The notes below the pieces were generated by a model. That model was not told the DNA's origin and made no database searches. It saw nothing but the letters and a program-made list of their open reading frames with translations. DNA of 61,156 bases from Deferribacteraceae bacterium. GTDB lineage: Bacteria > Chrysiogenota > Deferribacteres > Deferribacterales > JAISNW01. The DNA lies in NCBI GenBank assembly GCA_031256375.1, contig JAIRQX010000025.1, positions 1 to 61,156 on the forward strand, written 5' to 3'. Below are positions 2,355 through 47,985 of the stretch, one piece after another. Position numbers and translations under genes: made by a program. The first letter of the stretch is position 1. Every line of letters starts with the position of its first letter.

Positions 2355-2666
2355 ATGAGGATCAACGATAAGCAGTTCATCACGACAGACAAGGGTGATA
2401 AAGCTGCCGACACTAAAAAGGCGGAAGGGAAGCGCGGAGGGGAAGCGGGCAAATCGGCTTCTTTAAAAGCAACCGCTGATAGTGTTCAGTTATCATCACG
2501 CACGCGTGATATTGCGGAGATCACATTACAGCTGAAGGAAGCCTCAGAAGTACGGGAAGAACTCGTCAGTGAGCTCAGGTCCAGAATTAAAAGCGGCGAA
2601 TATCATGTTTCAGGATTTGATATCGCATCCAAAATAATGGACAAAGCGCGCAGCAGTATCTTCTAA
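2355..2666 (+). CDS. flgM: Anti-sigma-28 factor FlgM
   Basis: FlgM holds sigma-28 inactive until the hook is complete and is then exported through the flagellar secretion channel. The 103-residue product has the expected disordered, charged N-terminus (many K, E, G and A) and a conserved helical C-terminus that binds sigma: VQLSSRTRDIAEITLQL through VREELVSELRSRIKSGEYHVSGFDIASKIMDKA. The GGGGAG at 2342-2347 is a good ribosome-binding site. It stands behind its own sigma-28 promoter, giving a self-limiting loop. flgN follows within 90 bases, the same flgM-flgN pair as in enterobacteria. Confidence 0.93.
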   Translation: MRINDKQFITTDKGDKAADTKKAEGKRGGEAGKSASLKATADSVQLSSRTRDIAEITLQLKEASEVREELVSELRSRIKSGEYHVSGFDIASKIMDKARSSIF

Positions 2667-2750
2667 TCAGCGGACCCTTTAAGAGGGGCGGCCGGTACTT
2701 TTAATTCCTATTGTCCTGCATAGCTAAAAAAAAGCATGGAGGACATCATT

Positions 2751-3266
2751 ATGGAAAACATCAGACATTTGGTTGAAGTGCTCAAATCACAGGTAAGTCT
2801 GTATTCTGAGCTTTCGGAATTAATGGCGTCTGAAAAACAGGCCATTGTTTCTTGGTTAATCGAAAAAACCGTTGAAATCACAAAAAGGAAAGAAGCCCTG
2901 TTGCGCAAAGAGCGTATTCAAAGCGAAGCGCGCAATGCCCTTTTGTCTAAAATCGCTGCGGAGCAAAATGTAGCGTCGCTAAAAATATTGGATATTATTT
3001 ATGTTGCGCGGGAAAAAGCTCAAACGGCGGAAGGGGATGCAGAGGCTACAAGAATAGCGGACGAGCTTGCCGGTTTATGTGATAAGGTAACCGAACTCGT
3101 CGCTAATATTCATGCGGAAAATATTTCCCTGAAGATTCTATATGCTACAAACAACCGGCTTATAAACGATTTTTTCACACAGTCGGGTCTGACAAATGTG
3201 TCAGCCGCCGGATATGGTCCTAACGGGGGCAACAGAAGGATGTCCTCTATGCAAAGGGTCGGATAG
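2751..3266 (+). CDS. flgN: FlgN-like hook-filament junction chaperone
   Basis: FlgN is the cytoplasmic export chaperone for FlgK and FlgL. The 171-residue product is almost wholly helical and charged, with the family-like start HLVEVLKSQVSLYSELSELM and the turn EKQAIVSWLIEKTVEITKRKEALLRKE. It is placed between flgM and flgK, where FlgN is expected. I chose the ATG at 2751 because a GGAGG at 2738-2742 lies eight bases ahead; an earlier in-frame ATG at 2736 overlaps that ribosome-binding site and is unlikely. Sequence conservation in FlgN is low, so the call leans on context. Confidence 0.8.
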   Translation: MENIRHLVEVLKSQVSLYSELSELMASEKQAIVSWLIEKTVEITKRKEALLRKERIQSEARNALLSKIAAEQNVASLKILDIIYVAREKAQTAEGDAEATRIADELAGLCDKVTELVANIHAENISLKILYATNNRLINDFFTQSGLTNVSAAGYGPNGGNRRMSSMQRVG

Positions 3267-3370: not shown

Positions 3371-3386
3371 TGGCATATTTTTTGCG
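3371..3386 (+). promoter_or_regulatory. Sigma-54 (-24/-12) promoter for flgK-flgL-fliW-csrA
   Basis: TGGCATATTTTTTGCG matches the sigma-54 pattern TGGCAY-N6-TTGC, with exactly ten bases between the invariant GG and GC. It lies in non-coding DNA about 320 bases before flgK. In other flagellated bacteria flgK/flgL are often sigma-54 or sigma-28 dependent, so the placement is sensible. I did not locate an enhancer site. Confidence 0.7.
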
Positions 3387-3401
3387 TATGATTTTTGAGG
3401 T

Positions 3402-3447
3402 ATTAAGCCGGATTTATTCCGGCTTAATAAAGCGAAACGCTCGAGTA
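3402..3447 (+). repeat. Modular hairpin repeat, copy 1
   Basis: Begins with the hairpin TTAAGCCGGA / TCCGGCTTAA and continues with the small hairpin AGCG-AAA-CGCT and CTCGAGT. The same order is seen at 3607-3652. A variant of the motif ACGAGAG follows downstream at 3476-3482. The reverse strand of the copies encodes related peptides (RNKSGLIP), showing that they share one ancestor. Confidence 0.8.
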
Positions 3448-3606
3448 CGACCTTTGCATAAGCGAGGGGAGTTTTACGAGAGTAAAATGACAAGCGACTC
3501 CCCATCGGGGAGTCAAATTGCGAAAGCAATTTGGTGGGGTTAAGGCGCAAAGCGCCGCCCAACAAACGATAGAGCGGTAGCGATGAAGTTTGTTGCAGCA
3601 AGCGGA

Positions 3607-3694
3607 ATTAAGCCGGATTTATTCCGGCGCAATGAAGCGTTGCGCTCGAGTGTGAGCGAAGCGAACATTACGAGAGGGAAATAATTACGAGAGG
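3607..3694 (+). repeat. Modular hairpin repeat, copy 2, supplying the flgK ribosome-binding site
   Basis: Repeats the ATTAAGCCGGATTTATTCC hairpin (first 22 bases identical to copy 1), followed by GCGCAA-N7-TTGCGC and CTCGAGTGTGAGCGAA. It ends in GCGAACATTACGAGAGG, and the 11-base ATTACGAGAGG is then repeated 17 bases on (3667-3677 and 3684-3694). The second GAGG is the ribosome-binding site of flgK. The same tail precedes the DUF1385 gene at 32829. Confidence 0.8.
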
Positions 3695-3703
3695 AAAATA
3701 AAT

Positions 3704-5470
3704 ATGAGCAATTTATTATCAATGTTGTACACAGGCGTAACGGGGATTTATGCAAGTCAGGCGCAGCTTGATGTTACAGGTCACAATATAGCCAATATTA
3801 ATAACCCAAACTATTCCCGCCAGAGGGTGAATCTGGCGTCATCATTCTATCAGACGGACTCTTACGGGACTTTCGGCCGCGGCGTAAACGTAGTTGAGGT
3901 AATCCGCGTATATGATGAACTGCTTGCAAAAACCTTACGCAATGAATCATCCTCTCTTGCCTACTGGAAAAGCTCTCAGAATACCCTTGAAAGGATAAGG
4001 CTATATTTTAATGAACTGGAGCGGGGTTCAGGTCTTGGAGAGGCGTTACGCAACTATTTTAACGCATGGCAGGATTTATCCACCGCTTCAGACCACACCG
4101 ATGAATCTTATGTAAAACGCACACAGCTCCTTGCCTCTGCCACTCAGCTTGCCACACAGATACGCGATGACCGCGAAATGTTTACAAGCCTGCAGGATGA
4201 GCTGGATTACAGGCTTAAAGGTTATGTGGAAGAGATTAACACCTATGCAAAAGGGATAGCGGAACTAAACCAGAAGATAATCGGTGTGGAGGCGGGTGGA
4301 AGGTTAAATGCAAATGATTTGCGTGACCACAGAGATGCGCTTGTGAATAAAATTGCCACTCTTGCCGGGATCAACGTTGTAGAACGTCCCAACGGGGAAT
4401 TTGCCGTTTTTGTCGGAGGCGAGCCTATAGTGGACGGAGGAAGATCATTTGAGCTGACAATAGAAAAAAATCCCGCCAACGGCAATCATTACGACATAGT
4501 ATGGAATAATGGAGATTACTTCAGCAAAGGTTCCGTGATTACTAACAACATTTACGGAGGGGTAATTCAGGCAGATATCAAAATGCGAGATGAGATAATA
4601 AACGGGTATATATCTGAACTTGACAGTATGGCGCATACCCTTGTCTATGAAACAAACAAGGTTCATGTTTCCGGGCAGGGGCTTGTACGCTACGACAACC
4701 TTGTATCAACCAACGCGGTAGTAAACCCTGAATACTGGCTAAATCATGAACCCGGGATATTTCCTTATGAAGTTAAAGCCGGAACGTTTCAGATTCATAT
4801 TTATGACGAAAGCGATCCTGATAACAAGGTTTTGATGACCACCTATAACATAGAGATAGACCCTGCCAAAGATACCCTTAACGGTGTAGCGGAAAAAATT
4901 TCCGGCGCTGACGGCAGCTTGGGGGGCGGAATAATTGAAGCCACCACAAACAGAGACGGCACTGTAAAAATTAAGGTAGCCAGCGGATATACATTCTCTT
5001 TTGGCGATGATACATCCGATTTTCTGATAGCGGCGGGCTTTAATAACTTTTTTCAGGGAACAAACGCCTCGGATATTAAAGTTGACAGCCATATTGAAGA
5101 CAACCCTCAATTTATAGCGGCATCCAAAGGCGACGCCCCGGGGGATAACAGAAACGCCCTTTCCATGATAGAGGTAAAATATACAAAAGCAACTGTTGGA
5201 AACAATATAACCATAGAAGAATTTTACGGTTACTTTGTCGGGCAACTCGCGACGGATAAACAGCAGGTAGATATATTTGTCATTACAAAACAGATGACGT
5301 ACACCCAGTTCTCCGACAAAATGGAACAGATAAAAGGCGTTTCCATGGAAGAGGAACAGATCAACCTCATTCAGTTTCAGCGCGTTTTACAGGCAAATTC
5401 CAGATATATTAACGCAATAGATGAGATGTTGCATCTGATTGTGAATAATCTTGGTTTGGTAGGGAGATAA
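3704..5470 (+). CDS. flgK: Flagellar hook-associated protein 1 FlgK
   Basis: FlgK is the first hook-filament junction protein, exported with the help of FlgN. The 588-residue product has the typical N-terminus SMLYTGVTGIYASQAQLDVTGHNIANINNPNYSRQ split into conserved pieces, and a C-terminal helix (EEEQINLIQFQRVLQANSRYINAIDEMLHLIVNN) that forms the core of the junction. The central part (about residues 190-500) is a variable outer domain. The ATG is preceded by GAGG at 3691-3694, which lies inside a repeat. flgL begins five bases after the stop. Expression probably comes from the sigma-54-like promoter at 3371. Confidence 0.96.
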   Translation: MSNLLSMLYTGVTGIYASQAQLDVTGHNIANINNPNYSRQRVNLASSFYQTDSYGTFGRGVNVVEVIRVYDELLAKTLRNESSSLAYWKSSQNTLERIRLYFNELERGSGLGEALRNYFNAWQDLSTASDHTDESYVKRTQLLASATQLATQIRDDREMFTSLQDELDYRLKGYVEEINTYAKGIAELNQKIIGVEAGGRLNANDLRDHRDALVNKIATLAGINVVERPNGEFAVFVGGEPIVDGGRSFELTIEKNPANGNHYDIVWNNGDYFSKGSVITNNIYGGVIQADIKMRDEIINGYISELDSMAHTLVYETNKVHVSGQGLVRYDNLVSTNAVVNPEYWLNHEPGIFPYEVKAGTFQIHIYDESDPDNKVLMTTYNIEIDPAKDTLNGVAEKISGADGSLGGGIIEATTNRDGTVKIKVASGYTFSFGDDTSDFLIAAGFNNFFQGTNASDIKVDSHIEDNPQFIAASKGDAPGDNRNALSMIEVKYTKATVGNNITIEEFYGYFVGQLATDKQQVDIFVITKQMTYTQFSDKMEQIKGVSMEEEQINLIQFQRVLQANSRYINAIDEMLHLIVNNLGLVGR

Positions 5471-5475
5471 AAATT

Positions 5476-8400
5476 ATGAGTATGCGAATAACATTCCAGT
5501 GTCAGTCACTTCGTTATCAGGAGGGGATACGTCAGTCTTTTAACGATCTTTTGACTGCCAGCGATAAGGTTATAAAAGAGAGACTTTTGTTAAACCCCGA
5601 ATCCTCCCCATCAAACTATGTAATGGCGTACTCCATGCAGCGCACATTAGACGATATGGAAAGATTCACTAAAAACGCCCAGTATGCTGACGGCTGGCTA
5701 TCTAACACTGATAACGCAATACAGGGAGTTATTGATTTAATCAGCCAAGTGCGTAATAATCTTGCCCTAAACGGAAATAACGGCTATCACAGCTCTGAAA
5801 GCCTTATGGCGCTTGCGGGAGAAGTTCTGCAAAGATATTATCAGCTTTTTGATTTTGGCAATACAAAGTATCAGGGGCACTACATATTCGGCGGTTTTCA
5901 GACCAATACTGTGCCGTTCGGAAGCAAACCCAACAATATCTCCGGATTGTCACAGATTTACGGAGCCGGCGGCGAAGTTCTGGCAAGAGACGTTTTTAAT
6001 GATCTGCCGGAGCTGAAAACCGGCGACTACACCGTAGAGGTTACCATAAAAGGGGATACAGGCTATATGACCCTTTATGATAAATACGGCAATAAGATGC
6101 TGCTTGACTCTAACGGTTCTGACGAATCAGTAAAAGGGGGGAACAGCGTTTCAGAAACAATATCGTTTAAGCTGGAACCTAACGTGGTTGTAAATACCGG
6201 GCGCGGGATCGCCGTTAAAATGCCGGCGGATATTTCCGCAGGGTTGAAATACTCATTCAAATACGAGTCCGGCACAACTGCAACATACTACGGAGACAAC
6301 GGGCAAATTGCAAATAAGATCGGTTTTAATCAGGATGTCATCACAAATATTACCGGAAATCAGCTTCTGCTTTCGGCAAGTAAGGTAATAAAAGGCAGCC
6401 AGTACAATACTGTAAACGGCGTATCGCTGACGCCGAGTACACTTTTTAGTCAGATTACGGGAGCCAACTCAAGTCTGGGAGATTCTATACGCGTATCAGG
6501 CTCCGATCACAACGGCATCCCTGTAGGAGTTGCCAAAGTACAGGGAACTGCGGGAGTTAACCTGAATATGCTGTATGCGTCCAAAGAGGAGCGTACCTTT
6601 ACCCTAGGTTATGCCGGAAAATATTATCAGATAGAAGTTCCGGCAAAAGGGTATAAAGATATGGACGAGCTGATTTACACCATTAACGGTCAGCTTGCCA
6701 CAGCCGCGTACGTTGGTTCTCAGGATCTGGACAACTATTCAAGCTCCGATGATATGGAAATTAAGCATAATTTTGACATCAACGCGTGGACAACCGTAAA
6801 TTCAGGCGGTCAGCTGGATCTTACATCACAGATTAAAGCAATCTCTGACGGCGACCGGCTGTGCTTTGTAACCACCGATACAGGCAACCATACATCCCTC
6901 TCTGTAACCGGCTTTAAATATAACACGATGGGGTTTGATGACAAGACTGTCGCAGCTTTCGGGAAAGATACCATTTTTGAGATAGGGTATGATTTTGCTG
7001 AAAACGGTTTAAATACAATTTTTACGACACACGCTAATATAAGCGCTACCGGTACGGTGTCGTTTTTCATAAACGGAGAATATGTCCGGATTAATGGATT
7101 TAATCCCGGCAACACCCTTGAGGAAAATGAACTGCTGTTTGACAATGCTCTCCGGCAGGCGGGATTTGGTTTCACTGTAACGGCTAAATTGACGGAAACA
7201 ACCCCCGGCGTTTATGACGTCACTTTTACAATGCAAAATGTCAATTTAGACAGGAATACCCATCTTGCGACTATGTTTCATAACCCGTTGGGAATTTCTG
7301 ATTATCAGTGCGGGCAGGTTCCCTCCAATATAACCTCATGGCAAAAAGAGCATAATGTGGGCGATTTTATGAACTTCATTAAATCTCTTTATGATGATGC
7401 AGTGGATGTTTCTATTGTGGACGGGCGACTTGTGGTAAGCGATATACGCACCGGCGCAAGCCGTTTGACAATGAATATAACTGAAAATAATCAGGGGATA
7501 GGTTTGCCTATAGTTGACCAATTTACCAAAGTAACGGGCAAATATGAAGGTAACAAGGATGATCACTGGGATTTAAGGCTGAACATGACGCATAATGCCG
7601 ATGGTACGCGCACGGCATATATAGAGGTATGGGACAAAAACGGCACAAAAATAATTGATAAAACGGTGAATAACTATTATGGGCAGGAGATAGAGTTGCG
7701 TCATGGCGTAAAACTTGTTCTGGACGATATGAGCGTGCCGTCAGGAGGTTCAGCTACAAAAATTTTCCAGTTGGATCTTAAAGCGGGAGCCGCTCTTAAC
7801 TTTGGAGATATGAATGTAGCTTCAGAGGGGGACAATGCCAATGCTTTCACTTCGCTTATGAATTTATACAATGCGATGCAAAACGGTTTTTACCTTTGGG
7901 GCGCGGGGGAACCCAGCGCATGGCATATTGATTCCGGCTTTAACTCTACCGCAATCCCGTACTTTGATGACAGCTTTTTCAGCGGCAACTTTAACGCTTT
8001 ATGGAAATATCAGGTAGAACCCAATGGGGGCAAGACTGATTTATATCTGCAAAAAGAGTTCACGCAAAGGTTAGGGCAATTACAGTTTATCAACAACACG
8101 GTAACAACTCTGGATTTTACCATACGGCTTTACGACAACGTAACTCAAACAATGACAGCGCATTCAGTTTCGGTTAACCTTACGGGTGTTACAAACAGCG
8201 CCGAGATGACACAGGCTATAATGGACGCCATAAATAACAATCCTGTTTTATATAATGAGAAGATACATGTAACTATTGAGAACGGACAGGTAGTATTTCA
8301 CTCCGGTTCAGGCGCAAAAAATATCTCTGTTGTTCCCGCGGATGAAAAAGATGTTTATATGATGGGGATAGATAATCAGCGGATAAACAGATCGCTCGGG

Positions 8401-9456
8401 ACAGTTTTCACCGCTGCCGCTACATTTACCATACACAGGATGGATGCGATAGCCGGCGTATGGGATATCCCTTTATCCGTTACTGTGCCGGATCCGCTTG
8501 GAAGTTATCCGAATGGAATTTACCCTGATGTGAACGCGGTTTTGTTTGATATTCAGAGTCAGCTTGATCTCCATTTCGGACCTTCTGTTGTTACGGCGGG
8601 GCTTGTCAACGGAGTTCTTAGCTTTTCCGCAGCGGGCGATCCTGTATATTACGATAATGTAGTTAGCCCTAACGGCGCTCTGGGAATTAACAATAACACG
8701 CAAAACTATATATTTGCCGAAAAAGAGGTTTTGTTTGATATGTCAGAGGCGTCCGTAATGCAGCGTATGCTGACATTCAGATACCTTGACGGTATAACGG
8801 AGGTATCGCGAAGTATTGTTGTGGACGCAAAATTTTATGACAATATGGATGACCTTATTGCGGAAGTAAACAGCAAACTTGCCGCCGAGGGGTTAAACTT
8901 TGAAGCTGTGCAGTATGGTACAAAAGGGTTAGCTTTTCAGGAAATCGGCGCGGATATGTTGATCTCTGTTGAGGGAGATCATGAAGGGTTTTTGGGGTTC
9001 CCGAAAACAGGAGATAAGATTACAATAGCTGTCACCGATGAAAAAGGGCGTAGTATTCAAAATGTTATTGTAGATACCGCAAATGTGGAATATAGTGTAT
9101 CTGACGGGTTGCTTTTTGGGTTTGACAAAGGCTCTCTGATTGCGACAGACAGCTTCACCGGAACAATAGGTTCCGGAATAACGTATGAGCTTGGCATTCT
9201 TGATTTAGTTGAAAGCCAGCTTCTGCAATGCCTTACCCTTACGGGGAACCGTCAGGCGAGGGTGGAATCTGTTATAGAGTTTAACGCAACCTTTAAAACC
9301 GTGGGGGAGAACCAGAAAGCGGTTTATATGGGTTCAACGGATATAGATAAAATTGATGCGGCGACACAGCTTTCAATGGCGGAAAACGCATATAAGTATG
9401 CGTTATCTATTACGGCGCAGATTATGTCTATATCTATATTGGATTATTTGAGGTAA
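5476..9456 (+). CDS. flgL: Giant FlgL-type hook-associated protein 3
   Basis: The ends match flagellin/FlgL: the N-terminal helical part (MRITFQCQSLRYQEGIRQSF through RFTKNAQYADGWLSNTDNAIQG) and a C-terminal helix (AATQLSMAENAYKYALSITAQIM). At 1326 residues it is about four times the usual FlgL of roughly 300. About 1000 residues, from position 150 to about 1220, form an insertion in the surface-exposed middle, rich in G, N, T, D and S with beta-like stretches. Such a block would project from the hook-filament junction. Its reading frame is intact. Position after flgK and before fliW-csrA supports FlgL; a flagellin function is less likely. Confidence 0.85.
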   Translation: MSMRITFQCQSLRYQEGIRQSFNDLLTASDKVIKERLLLNPESSPSNYVMAYSMQRTLDDMERFTKNAQYADGWLSNTDNAIQGVIDLISQVRNNLALNGNNGYHSSESLMALAGEVLQRYYQLFDFGNTKYQGHYIFGGFQTNTVPFGSKPNNISGLSQIYGAGGEVLARDVFNDLPELKTGDYTVEVTIKGDTGYMTLYDKYGNKMLLDSNGSDESVKGGNSVSETISFKLEPNVVVNTGRGIAVKMPADISAGLKYSFKYESGTTATYYGDNGQIANKIGFNQDVITNITGNQLLLSASKVIKGSQYNTVNGVSLTPSTLFSQITGANSSLGDSIRVSGSDHNGIPVGVAKVQGTAGVNLNMLYASKEERTFTLGYAGKYYQIEVPAKGYKDMDELIYTINGQLATAAYVGSQDLDNYSSSDDMEIKHNFDINAWTTVNSGGQLDLTSQIKAISDGDRLCFVTTDTGNHTSLSVTGFKYNTMGFDDKTVAAFGKDTIFEIGYDFAENGLNTIFTTHANISATGTVSFFINGEYVRINGFNPGNTLEENELLFDNALRQAGFGFTVTAKLTETTPGVYDVTFTMQNVNLDRNTHLATMFHNPLGISDYQCGQVPSNITSWQKEHNVGDFMNFIKSLYDDAVDVSIVDGRLVVSDIRTGASRLTMNITENNQGIGLPIVDQFTKVTGKYEGNKDDHWDLRLNMTHNADGTRTAYIEVWDKNGTKIIDKTVNNYYGQEIELRHGVKLVLDDMSVPSGGSATKIFQLDLKAGAALNFGDMNVASEGDNANAFTSLMNLYNAMQNGFYLWGAGEPSAWHIDSGFNSTAIPYFDDSFFSGNFNALWKYQVEPNGGKTDLYLQKEFTQRLGQLQFINNTVTTLDFTIRLYDNVTQTMTAHSVSVNLTGVTNSAEMTQAIMDAINNNPVLYNEKIHVTIENGQVVFHSGSGAKNISVVPADEKDVYMMGIDNQRINRSLGTVFTAAATFTIHRMDAIAGVWDIPLSVTVPDPLGSYPNGIYPDVNAVLFDIQSQLDLHFGPSVVTAGLVNGVLSFSAAGDPVYYDNVVSPNGALGINNNTQNYIFAEKEVLFDMSEASVMQRMLTFRYLDGITEVSRSIVVDAKFYDNMDDLIAEVNSKLAAEGLNFEAVQYGTKGLAFQEIGADMLISVEGDHEGFLGFPKTGDKITIAVTDEKGRSIQNVIVDTANVEYSVSDGLLFGFDKGSLIATDSFTGTIGSGITYELGILDLVESQLLQCLTLTGNRQARVESVIEFNATFKTVGENQKAVYMGSTDIDKIDAATQLSMAENAYKYALSITAQIMSISILDYLR

Positions 9457-9462
9457 ATATAA

Positions 9463-9909
9463 ATGACAGACAAAAAAACAGAAATTACATCTCCCAAACT
9501 CGGAAAGATAAGTTACAGGGATGATGACCTTATAACCCTGACATCGCCTCTTCTGGGGTTTGCGGAACTGAGTGATTATCTGATTATTTCAAATACCGAT
9601 TATTTCCCTTTTCTGTGGCTTCAATCGGTGGAAGATCCGTCTGTTTGCTTTATTCTTATTGAGCCGGAACCTTTCTTTAAGGATTATAAGCCTAAAGTCA
9701 ACAAACGTGAGTTGAAAGTGATGGGAGTTAAAGAGCTTTCAGAGCTTAAAATGTTTTGTATAGTCGTAATACCTGACGATCCTAAAAAGGCGACGGCAAA
9801 TCTGCGCGCGCCAATTATCGTTAATTTTGAGCGGAAATTAGCCAAACAGGCGGTATTGGAAGATGAAACTTGGGATATCCGCGCGCCGCTTTTCCCGGGT
9901 AAAGGTTGA
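9463..9909 (+). CDS. fliW: Flagellar assembly factor FliW
   Basis: FliW binds flagellin and CsrA; when flagellin accumulates in the cytoplasm FliW is sequestered and CsrA is released to block translation. The 148-residue product shows the family pattern: LTSPLLGFAELSDYLII, then FPFLWLQSVEDPSVCFILIEP, with a C-terminal half containing KMFCIVVIPDDPKKATANLRAPIIVN. Length is normal. It is only three bases from csrA, the conserved partner pair. The six-base gap after flgL suggests one transcript flgK-flgL-fliW-csrA. Confidence 0.96.
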   Translation: MTDKKTEITSPKLGKISYRDDDLITLTSPLLGFAELSDYLIISNTDYFPFLWLQSVEDPSVCFILIEPEPFFKDYKPKVNKRELKVMGVKELSELKMFCIVVIPDDPKKATANLRAPIIVNFERKLAKQAVLEDETWDIRAPLFPGKG

Positions 9910-9912
9910 CGT

Positions 9913-10155
9913 ATGCTTATATTATCCCGCAAAATAAATGAAAGCATTATGGTGGGAGAAAATATCGAGGTCAAGATAATTGATGTCACAAGCCGTGCCG
10001 TAAAGCTGGGGATAGAGGCGCCGAAAGAGATATCTGTGCATCGCAAAGAGGTTTTTGAGATGATAAAAAACGAAAATCTGCTTGCGGTTCCTATGGCGGA
10101 TAAAAATAAGGTGGTATCGCTTTTTGAGTTTTATAACAAAAATAAAAATGATTAA
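9913..10155 (+). CDS. csrA: Carbon storage regulator CsrA
   Basis: CsrA is a small RNA-binding dimer that represses translation by covering GGA motifs at ribosome-binding sites. The 80-residue product starts with the conserved MLILSRKINESIMVGENIEV and keeps the RNA-contact region VKLGIEAPKEISVHRKEVFE. The C-terminal tail is a little longer than in Escherichia coli (61 residues), as is common where FliW is present. It follows fliW by three bases. The GGA-rich end of the flgK leader (3671-3695) is a plausible local target, which is inference. Confidence 0.97.
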   Translation: MLILSRKINESIMVGENIEVKIIDVTSRAVKLGIEAPKEISVHRKEVFEMIKNENLLAVPMADKNKVVSLFEFYNKNKND

Positions 10156-27210: not shown

Positions 27211-27346
27211 TATAGCAGTTCCACCCGTCATTGCGAGGAACATCTTGACGAAGCAATCCATTTGGAGCATTTACCTAAATAGATTACCGCGATTCATAAA
27301 AAACATTCCGCTTGCAAAGATGTTAATGTAAAGTGTAGCTGCTATA
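27211..27346 (+). repeat. MITE-like repeat with terminal inverted repeats, copy B
   Basis: A 136-base element. The left end TATAGCAGTTCCAC (27211-27224) and right end GTGTAGCTGCTATA (27333-27346) are inverted repeats matching at 12 of 14 positions. Inside are TCATTGCGAGGAAC, GACGAAGCAATCCA, GAGCATTTACCTA and ATAAAAAACATTCCGC, shared with copies at 17394 and 47850. It lies seven bases after metQ. No reading frame of note is inside. Confidence 0.85.
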
Positions 27347-32061: not shown

Positions 32062-32796
32062 ATGCCTGTTGTTGTTCCTAAAGTGGAACTGTTGGCGTTT
32101 ACCGGCGGTGAAAAAATAGCCGCCCTTGCCGCCAAACTCTGCTATTCTGACGCATCTATCAGCGATTTGACCGATGCGGTTGCCGTATCGGAGCAGGAAA
32201 AGTTTCTTGCCACGCTTAACCGCATGAGGCACCATTCCGTATTTGAACATATTTCGTTTACATTCGGTATAGAAGGGGTGTCAAGAGCGTTCACCCATCA
32301 GCTTGTGCGCCACCGTATAGCCAGCTATTCCCAGCAATCTCAACGTTACGTCGCACACACCGGAGGTTTTGATTATATAGCGCCGTCCTCGGTTGCCGCA
32401 AATACGGAGGCGCTGGAAAAATATAATGAAATTATGAACAGTATCGCGGGCAGCTACGATAAACTCGCTGCGCTGGGCATACCTGCGGAAGATGCGCGAT
32501 ATTTACTTCCTAACGCTTGTGCAACCAAGATTATAGTGACTATGAATGCGCGGGAATTACTGCACTTTTTCCGGCTGCGCTGCTGTGAACGCGCGCAGTG
32601 GGAGATACGCGGGGTTGCCGTTGAAATGCTGAAAAAGGTAGTAAGTCTTGCGCCTTCAGTGTTCGGACTGGCGGGACCTTCATGTGTATCCGGCGCCTGT
32701 TCCGAAGGTAGGATGTCATGTGGTCGCGCTTCTGAAAACCGCAGGAAATTTGAAGAATTACGAACCAGCGCAATGGAGCGAAACGCTCGATTGTGA
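32062..32796 (+). CDS. thyX: FAD-dependent thymidylate synthase ThyX
   Basis: Makes dTMP from dUMP with a flavin and methylene-tetrahydrofolate. The 244-residue product contains the ThyX motif RHRIASYSQQSQRY from residue 83 and conserved HHSVFEHISFTFGIEGVSRA, plus NARELLHFFRLRCCERAQWEIR. The last 10 or so residues (SAMERNARL) are encoded by a dispersed hairpin repeat, so the repeat has replaced or lengthened the natural C-terminus. It sits eight bases after rpmE; the rpmE-thyX-DUF1385-prfA-prmC order is a known layout in several phyla. Confidence 0.93.
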   Translation: MPVVVPKVELLAFTGGEKIAALAAKLCYSDASISDLTDAVAVSEQEKFLATLNRMRHHSVFEHISFTFGIEGVSRAFTHQLVRHRIASYSQQSQRYVAHTGGFDYIAPSSVAANTEALEKYNEIMNSIAGSYDKLAALGIPAEDARYLLPNACATKIIVTMNARELLHFFRLRCCERAQWEIRGVAVEMLKKVVSLAPSVFGLAGPSCVSGACSEGRMSCGRASENRRKFEELRTSAMERNARL

Positions 32797-32828
32797 GCCT
32801 AAAGGCGAACATTACGAGAGGAAAACAA
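32767..32828 (+). repeat. Modular hairpin repeat, copy 3 (thyX end / DUF1385 start)
   Basis: AGCGCAATGGAGCG, hairpin GAGCG-AAA-CGCTC (32776-32788), TGTGAGC and GGCGAACATTACGAGAGGAAAA match the module before flgK. It includes the thyX stop codon (32794-32796) and the ribosome-binding site of the next gene (GAGAGG). Confidence 0.8.
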
Positions 32829-33737
32829 ATGAATAAAGAAAAATTCAACATAGGCGGGCAGGCGGTTATTGAAGGGGTGATGATGCGCGCTCCCGGGCAG
32901 TTTACAGTTGCCGTCCGCACATCTGAAGGTAATATAACCGTGCGCAGAGAGAATATATCAATAGACCGCAACCCGTTCTTTAAAAAACCTTTTTTGCGGG
33001 GGCTGATAGGTATTTACGACTCTCTTATTTTGGGAATCAAAGCGCTTAATTTCAGCGTCCAGCAATCCGGGGTTGAAGGGGAGAAACCTATCACCAAAAA
33101 GGAAACGGCGCTTAGTTTAGTTTTAGGGTTTGGGCTTGGCATATTGCTTTTTGTATTCATTCCACTCTGGCTTACCGATTTGTCAAAACATATTGTTCCC
33201 GCCGTGGAACGCTCCTTCTTACTTTTTAACGCAGTTGACGGCATAATCCGCGTGATATTTTTTGTGATCTATATCATAATAATTTCACGCATGAAAGATA
33301 TTCAGCGTGTATTTGAGTATCATGGCGCAGAACATAAATCAATATTCGCTTATGAGGAAGAGATGGAACTTTCTGTGGAAAATGCCCGTAAAATGAGCCG
33401 TTTTCACCCCCGCTGCGGTACAAGTTTCCTGCTGATAGTTATGATTGTCGCTATAATTATTTTTTCTATGATCCCAAAAGACTCCGCATTTATTATAAAA
33501 CTTGCTTCCAGAATACTCTTTCTGCCTGTAATCGCGGGAGTGTCTTACGAAATATTAAAACTAAGCGGTAAATATTCTGGAAATGTTATTGTAAAAATGC
33601 TGATTACGCCCGGATTATGGCTCCAGCGCCTTACCACAAGGGAACCGGACGATTCTCAGCTTGAAGTGGCGATAATATCAATAAAAGCCGCTCTCTCAGA
33701 GGATAATGCTCAACTGGACGGCATTACTTATGTTTGA
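32829..33737 (+). CDS. DUF1385 (YqhQ-like) membrane protein
   Basis: The 302-residue protein has the DUF1385 signature [24 protein letters not shown] at the N-terminus, [14 protein letters not shown] in the middle and [17 protein letters not shown], with four or more membrane segments. The function of the family is not known. It often precedes prfA, as here, and overlaps it by eight bases. I start at the ATG at 32829 with GAGAGG ahead; the GTG at 32793 lies in the repeat and would add 12 unrelated residues. Confidence 0.9.
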
Positions 33738-47849: not shown

Positions 47850-47985
47850 ATGACAGTTCCACTTGTCATTGCGAGGAACGTTTTGACGAAGCAATCCAGC
47901 TGGAGCATTTACCTACATGGATTGCCGCGCTTTATAAAAAACATTCCGCTCGCAAAGACGGTTAATGTAAAGTGGAACTGCTATA
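47850..47985 (+). repeat. MITE-like repeat with terminal inverted repeats, copy C
   Basis: A 136-base copy. CAGTTCCACTT (47854-47864) at the left and AAGTGGAACTG (47970-47980) at the right are perfect 11-base inverted repeats, and the right end continues CTATA. Inside, GCAATCCA (47891-47898) and TGGATTGC (47918-47925) form a second inverted pair. Internal blocks match copies at 17394 and 27211. It lies between two convergent genes, DUF1015 and ccmD. Confidence 0.85.

Follow-up and report, generated by a model that had tools for sequence, protein, structure and literature searches.

The flagellar locus considered here lies within the window (the whole stretch of 61,156 nucleotides that was analysed) of a 1.95 Mb metagenome-assembled genome (MAG), 95.6% complete in 128 contigs, which is the sole member of its genus in our comparison set and whose nearest named relatives are a Deferribacteraceae MAG, a Deferribacterales bacterium and Mucispirillum. 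Pfam matches give the gene order flgM-flgN-flgK-flgL-fliW-csrA (table 1), which bears out the order flgK-flgL-fliW-csrA read in the first-pass annotation, flgL being supported weakly. The product of the flgL-like gene is several-fold larger than usual, and its only match, a weak one to Flagellin_N, lies at the N terminus. The near-consensus −24/−12 site reported ahead of flgK is present as well: it differs from the sigma-54 consensus (TGGCAC-N5-TTGC) at one position and keeps the GG-N10-GC spacing. Taken alone, the motif is not above chance (one match in the window vs. 0.86 expected); it is backed by two sister genera, which carry a sigma-54-type motif at the same position before flgK (GTGGCATATATATTGC and TTGGCACATTTATTGC), and by the presence of the sigma-54 gene (rpoN) in the genome. 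The flgK transcript would start near 3397. The sequence TTGAGGT at 3394–3400, considered as a surviving native Shine-Dalgarno, overlaps this putative start and was taken as a coincidence.

Table 1. Features of the flgK region and of a further repeat copy in the window (positions in nt; R1 is the covariance model of the repeat)
Feature	Position	Strand	Evidence and remarks
flgM	2355-2666	+	Pfam; promoter lies downstream
flgN	2736-3266	+	Pfam; promoter lies downstream
Sigma-54-type −24/−12 promoter (TGGCAT-N5-TTGC)	3371-3385	+	Sequence; same place in two sister genera; rpoN in genome
Repeat copy 1, 5'-truncated	about 3399-3488	+	R1 79.1 bits; 3' part is a degenerate tail
Copy 1, 12-bp hairpin	3401-3429
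Copy 1, tail hairpin (TTTTAC-GAGA-GTAAAA)	3472-3487
Repeat copy 2, full length	about 3490-3684	+	R1 104 bits; 77-90% identity to the copies at C116, C12, C109, C95 and C128
Copy 2, P1	3496-3514
Copy 2, P2	3514-3533
Copy 2, P3	3544-3556
Copy 2, P4	3560-3595
Copy 2, P5	3612-3628
Copy 2, P6	3636-3646
Copy 2, P7	about 3645-3674
Copy 2, tail TTACGAGAGGGAAATAA	3668-3684
Third tail copy	3685-3701 (region to 3703)	+	17-nt direct repeat; genome-wide motif
flgK	3704-5470	+	Pfam FlgK_D1 (2e-49)
flgL-like gene (1326 aa)	5476-9456	+	Pfam Flagellin_N (weak)
fliW	9463-9909	+	Pfam FliW
csrA	9913-10155	+	Pfam CsrA
Further family copy	32747-32831	+	R1 63.0 bits; overlaps the thyX 3' end and ends at the start codon of a DUF1385 gene; Pfam Thy1, DUF1385

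Between this promoter and flgK, the first-pass annotation had described a chain of at least seven perfect short hairpins with GAAA, GAGA and AAA loops. The chain goes far beyond chance: the minimum free energy (MFE) of 3385–3730 is −127.6 kcal/mol, against a mean of −86.8 for dinucleotide shuffles (z = −7.7; 0 of 100 shuffles as good), and in the MFE fold eight apical loops, GAGA, GAAA and AAA among them, precede the start codon. Not every stem is perfect. No known structured RNA matched above its gathering score in the window (Rfam 15). We read the leader, from its sequence, as a dispersed repeat present twice in tandem, followed by a third copy of the 17-nt tail with which the repeat ends. 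The truncated copy 1 comprises the 12-bp hairpin, P6, the motif CTCGAGT and a degenerate tail, in which GAGAGT replaces GAGAGG and which is folded into a hairpin; 48 nt of it (3399–3446) are 85% identical to 3604–3651 in copy 2. Two successive copies of the tail ATTACGAGAGGRAAATA are present, and ACGAGAGGNAAAW is found two times in the window vs. 0.03 expected. The motifs GAGAGGGA and GAGAGGA, previously noted at the ribosome-binding site, are indeed there and belong to these two copies of the 17-nt repeat. The GAGG at 3691–3694, 9 nt ahead of the ATG, is presumably the Shine-Dalgarno of flgK.

By using the leader, its tail and a covariance model as queries, we found the repeat dispersed through the genome. 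A blastn search of the leader gave eight matches, not counting itself and its own palindrome, and the tail motif had 20 matches at about 16 distinct places, against two for a reversed control pattern. The covariance model (R1), built from ten copies, gave 17 hits at E ≤ 0.1, which places the family at about 15 sites; at the nine loci scoring at least 42 bits, most of the R1 score comes from the hairpin part, and R1 includes the tail, which biases its weak hits (tuf, fliN, and the gene after cheR) in favor of start codons. Read in sense, the end of a typical copy runs from a hairpin through TTACGAGAGG and an A-rich stretch to the start codon of a gene. The chromosomal genes found downstream are flgK, flgD, fliN, tuf, nusA, prs, rpe, hrcA (with a CIRCE-like inverted repeat before the copy) and the DUF1385 gene (tuf, nusA, prs, rpe, hrcA and flgD being named from sequence, without family search), together with a gene adjoining one whose end reads like cheR. 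Two prophage regions also carry copies, located before a baseplate hub gene, a gene for a phage protein of unknown function and a reading frame that precedes a holin, and one diverged copy stands before a phage gene. Identity among copies is 77–90%, a divergence that gives no support to recent movement. Several copies (flgD, prs, and C128) start at a common internal boundary, the AGGCGC hairpin, which favors defined modules over random truncation. Element ends are otherwise variable, and only the copy before rpe (C116) has flanking duplicates, in the form of a perfect repeat of about 48 bp that holds the terminal hairpin, the Shine-Dalgarno and the start codon and could be either a target duplication or a tandem duplication.

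The placement of the family is not random. At nearly all loci, copies lie in sense and are anchored to a start codon; this position is kept by all tail matches except tails internal to the leaders of flgK, rpe, and prs, and as a rough null, 12% of the intergenic (position, strand) pairs of this window are located, in sense, no more than 30 nt ahead of a start. Three R1 hits have no gene start at their end, namely the internal flgK copy, the left duplicate at rpe, and C66, in which a second inverted-repeat insertion seems to split the element from ATACGAGAGG, itself right before a start codon. This second inverted-repeat family (GTGGAACTGC ... CATTGCGAGG) also has pieces in the window, at 27215–27238 and 47867–47981. 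In most copies of the flgK-leader family, GAGG is found about 7–9 nt ahead of the start codon and, judging from sequence and spacing, the tail probably works as a Shine-Dalgarno. In two tails that do not serve as such, the internal one of flgK copy 1 and that of flgD (where an additional AGGAGG stands between the tail and the start codon), GAGAGT takes the place of GAGAGG, which supports the use of the tail as an initiation site, although the sample is small and other unused tails are intact (flgK copy 2, the first prs tail, and the left one at rpe). The first-pass annotation had also proposed that the hairpins may be parasitic repeats that had been tolerated. This comes near to our findings, apart from the non-random, start-anchored distribution of the copies and their built-in Shine-Dalgarno. 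In one rival reading, the copies are plain tolerated REP-type clutter, contributing nothing, whose anchoring to starts is a survivor effect; REPs are common in bacteria (PMC3733652), and both this genome and a sister genus contain further palindromic repeats, of which one lies in frame within a prmC-like gene. However, described REPs mostly lie near ORF 3' ends and at variable distances from downstream starts, unlike the present family, and the tail is the sole Shine-Dalgarno-like sequence visible at most of its loci, which makes mere clutter improbable.

The stems of the element covary among its copies. In P2, P3, P5, and the terminal hairpin, both sides change between copies while pairing is kept: we counted eight double-change cells vs. 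2.9 in shuffles, and none of 500 shuffles reached as high a value. Overall, 91% of the cells are paired against 30–50% when partners are slid, a control in which the structure is favored since it was derived from these same sequences. As the covariation comes from paralogous copies of one genome, it fits selection on the RNA and a DNA-hairpin constraint alike. The terminal hairpin occurs with nine different stem sequences, each just before TTACGAGAGG, so that its presence seems to outweigh its sequence. A CTCG:CGAG pairing that occludes the Shine-Dalgarno was considered as a defining feature and rejected: it is found in several copies and is missing in the short forms (tuf and the gene after cheR). 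The covariation of the terminal hairpin, its constant distance to start codons, and the strong conservation of CTCGAGT and ACGAGAG would also be expected if the tail and this hairpin bound a protein or small RNA that co-regulates in trans the translation of all genes bearing them, prophages carrying the site too, and three flagellar genes are among the chromosomal targets. On the other hand, the functions of the targets are mixed, no trans factor was identified, and the DNA of the element was found in none of the 49 other genomes of the phylum that were searched. We therefore consider such a regulon unlikely.

Relatives of the organism show what the flgK leader looks like without the element. 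In many genomes of the order, flgN directly adjoins flgK, and the two sister genera (G001 and G002) have the same promoter followed by a flgK leader of a few dozen nucleotides, free of the element. The leader thus seems to have been acquired by this lineage alone rather than to belong to normal flgK control. The comparison did not provide a clean empty site among the relatives examined, the sister genera being only about 55% identical in FlgK. In G001, R1 finds two weak cousins, one upstream of the promoter of a flgB-like gene and the other (C9, L124, match 1501–1586) in frame within the prmC-like gene, in the manner of a Rickettsia palindromic element.

Taken together, we propose, with a probability of roughly 0.7, that a REP-like, start-associated repeat entered a short sigma-54-driven flgK leader twice in tandem, replaced its initiation region and now supplies its Shine-Dalgarno. 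In this scenario, the starting state would be an ordinary short leader, into which a palindromic repeat specific to this genome was inserted or copied. The repeat would bring up to seven RNA hairpins and a Shine-Dalgarno module, made of TTACGAGAGG and an A-rich spacer, directly before the start codon, where the terminal GAGG would replace the native Shine-Dalgarno and start flgK translation, while the stable hairpins upstream would keep the tail free and possibly shield the mRNA. The fixed position and orientation of the copies may arise because only such insertions leave the gene translated, or because the copying mechanism targets initiation regions. Dedicated regulation of flgK would not be necessary. 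More tentatively, the element might be a structured RNA cassette that moves about as a portable translation-initiation region, being inserted or copied onto the Shine-Dalgarno and start sites of bacterial and prophage genes and taking over their translation start; we regard this extension as possible but doubtful.

The presence of fliW and csrA in the same operon had suggested that the leader could be a control hub, in which CsrA encoded by the operon would block translation by binding GGA at the ribosome-binding site of flgK, until relieved by FliW. This arrangement recalls the CsrA-FliW-flagellin switch known for B. subtilis hag and C. jejuni flaA, with fliW and csrA following flgK-flgL here. 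A GGA that overlaps a Shine-Dalgarno can be bound by CsrA, and close to its start codon the leader has a pair of GGA motifs, 16 nt apart, of which the first is mostly unpaired in the fold. However, the MFE fold of the flgK leader contains no GGA in an apical loop and its one ANGGA is located in the single-stranded tail, whereas two of the four flagellin leaders of the same genome, taken as positive controls, do have GGA in hairpin loops: the C119 leader in two loops near the start, one at the Shine-Dalgarno (ACTTACATGGAGGTAAGT), and the C78 leader, which has the ACTTACATGGAGGTAAGT sequence in common with it, in one further, predicted loop (the C6 and C4 leaders have none in their MFE folds). 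The hairpins resembling CsrA sites thus stand in front of flagellin genes, not of flgK, and the predicted folds make the flagellins the likely CsrA targets in this genome, as in B. subtilis and C. jejuni. In the latter species, flgK was not enriched with CsrA (0.7–1.0×) vs. 45–325× for flaA (PMC4894983). The identical tail also precedes tuf, nusA, prs, rpe, hrcA, and phage genes, and such a leader is absent from flgK of the sister genera, which keep the same promoter with a short leader, an outcome of the kind that the first-pass annotation had named as a refutation. We thus no longer regard the hub as the main explanation at flgK, since these data make it very improbable.

Searches for the origin of the element spoke against some candidates and revealed no gene able to move it. 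No RVT domain (reverse transcriptase) was found in the genome, and a retroelement or group II intron was rejected on this ground. A derivation from RAYT or IS200/IS605 was also rejected, as the only Y1_Tnp match in this 95.6% complete MAG adjoins tnpB in an IS605-type element whose end hairpins are unrelated. The element was not found in phage and plasmid records. Viral contigs gave 18 exact 15-mer hits, which we take for chance matches as neither ACGAGAGG nor CTCGAGT lies close to any of them, and no match to a longer pattern; relatives of the prophage proteins were found there at one distant locus only.

We found no literature on this repeat. Its nearest analogue is the SAS/ESAS system of cluster K mycobacteriophages, a short asymmetric repeat with a Shine-Dalgarno core, placed a few bases before the start codons of unrelated genes and nearly always in one orientation, about half of the copies having an inverted repeat just upstream; no function is known for it (PMC3203893). 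The flgK-leader family likewise lies a few nucleotides from start codons, in one orientation and with the Shine-Dalgarno inside. It differs in reaching about 200 nt, in residing mostly on a bacterial chromosome and in its covarying stems, whereas SAS is 13 bp long, was described in phages, and its authors saw little support for RNA pairing of the ESAS inverted repeats (PMC3203893). The 13-bp SAS consensus (GGGATAGGAGCCC) also differs from the tail found here (TTACGAGAGGAAAATAA), so that the family is SAS-like in its working and not a member. REP/BIME and the tagged palindromic repeats (GTAG, CGTC) are 20–40 bp long, lie mostly near ORF 3' ends and in many cases are linked to RAYT (PMC3733652). 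With these, the present family shares dispersed palindromic hairpins that are mostly intergenic, often species-specific and possibly mobile, but it is fixed upstream of starts, has a built-in Shine-Dalgarno and no RAYT was found. Rickettsia palindromic elements (RPEs) and MITEs are comparable as small palindromic inserts without mobility genes of their own, the sister-genus cousin in frame adding to the likeness. RPEs are found in coding sequence in about half of the cases, and MITEs are defined by terminal inverted repeats and target duplications (PMC10969869), two features that are not established for the flgK-leader family; neither Shine-Dalgarno sequences nor start codons are mentioned in the same 2024 review, which deals with prokaryotic MITEs (PMC10969869). 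Bacterial palindromic repeats were already known near gene ends, as promoters and inside proteins. If our interpretation is true, selfish repeats can also take over the translation initiation of core genes (tuf, nusA, prs, and flagellar genes) and be shared with prophages.

Other palindromic sequences were encountered in the genome. On C128 (L148, 848–1011 and 1744–1929), further hairpin-chain leaders, devoid of the TTACGAGAGG tail, stand ahead of more prophage genes. On C114 (L159, 1289–1521), an ORF contains 7.8 tandem repeats of a 30-bp palindromic unit of the GCGAAGCGAACCCTCCGGA type, which encode a recurring peptide of the SEPSGYGVMR type close to the C terminus.
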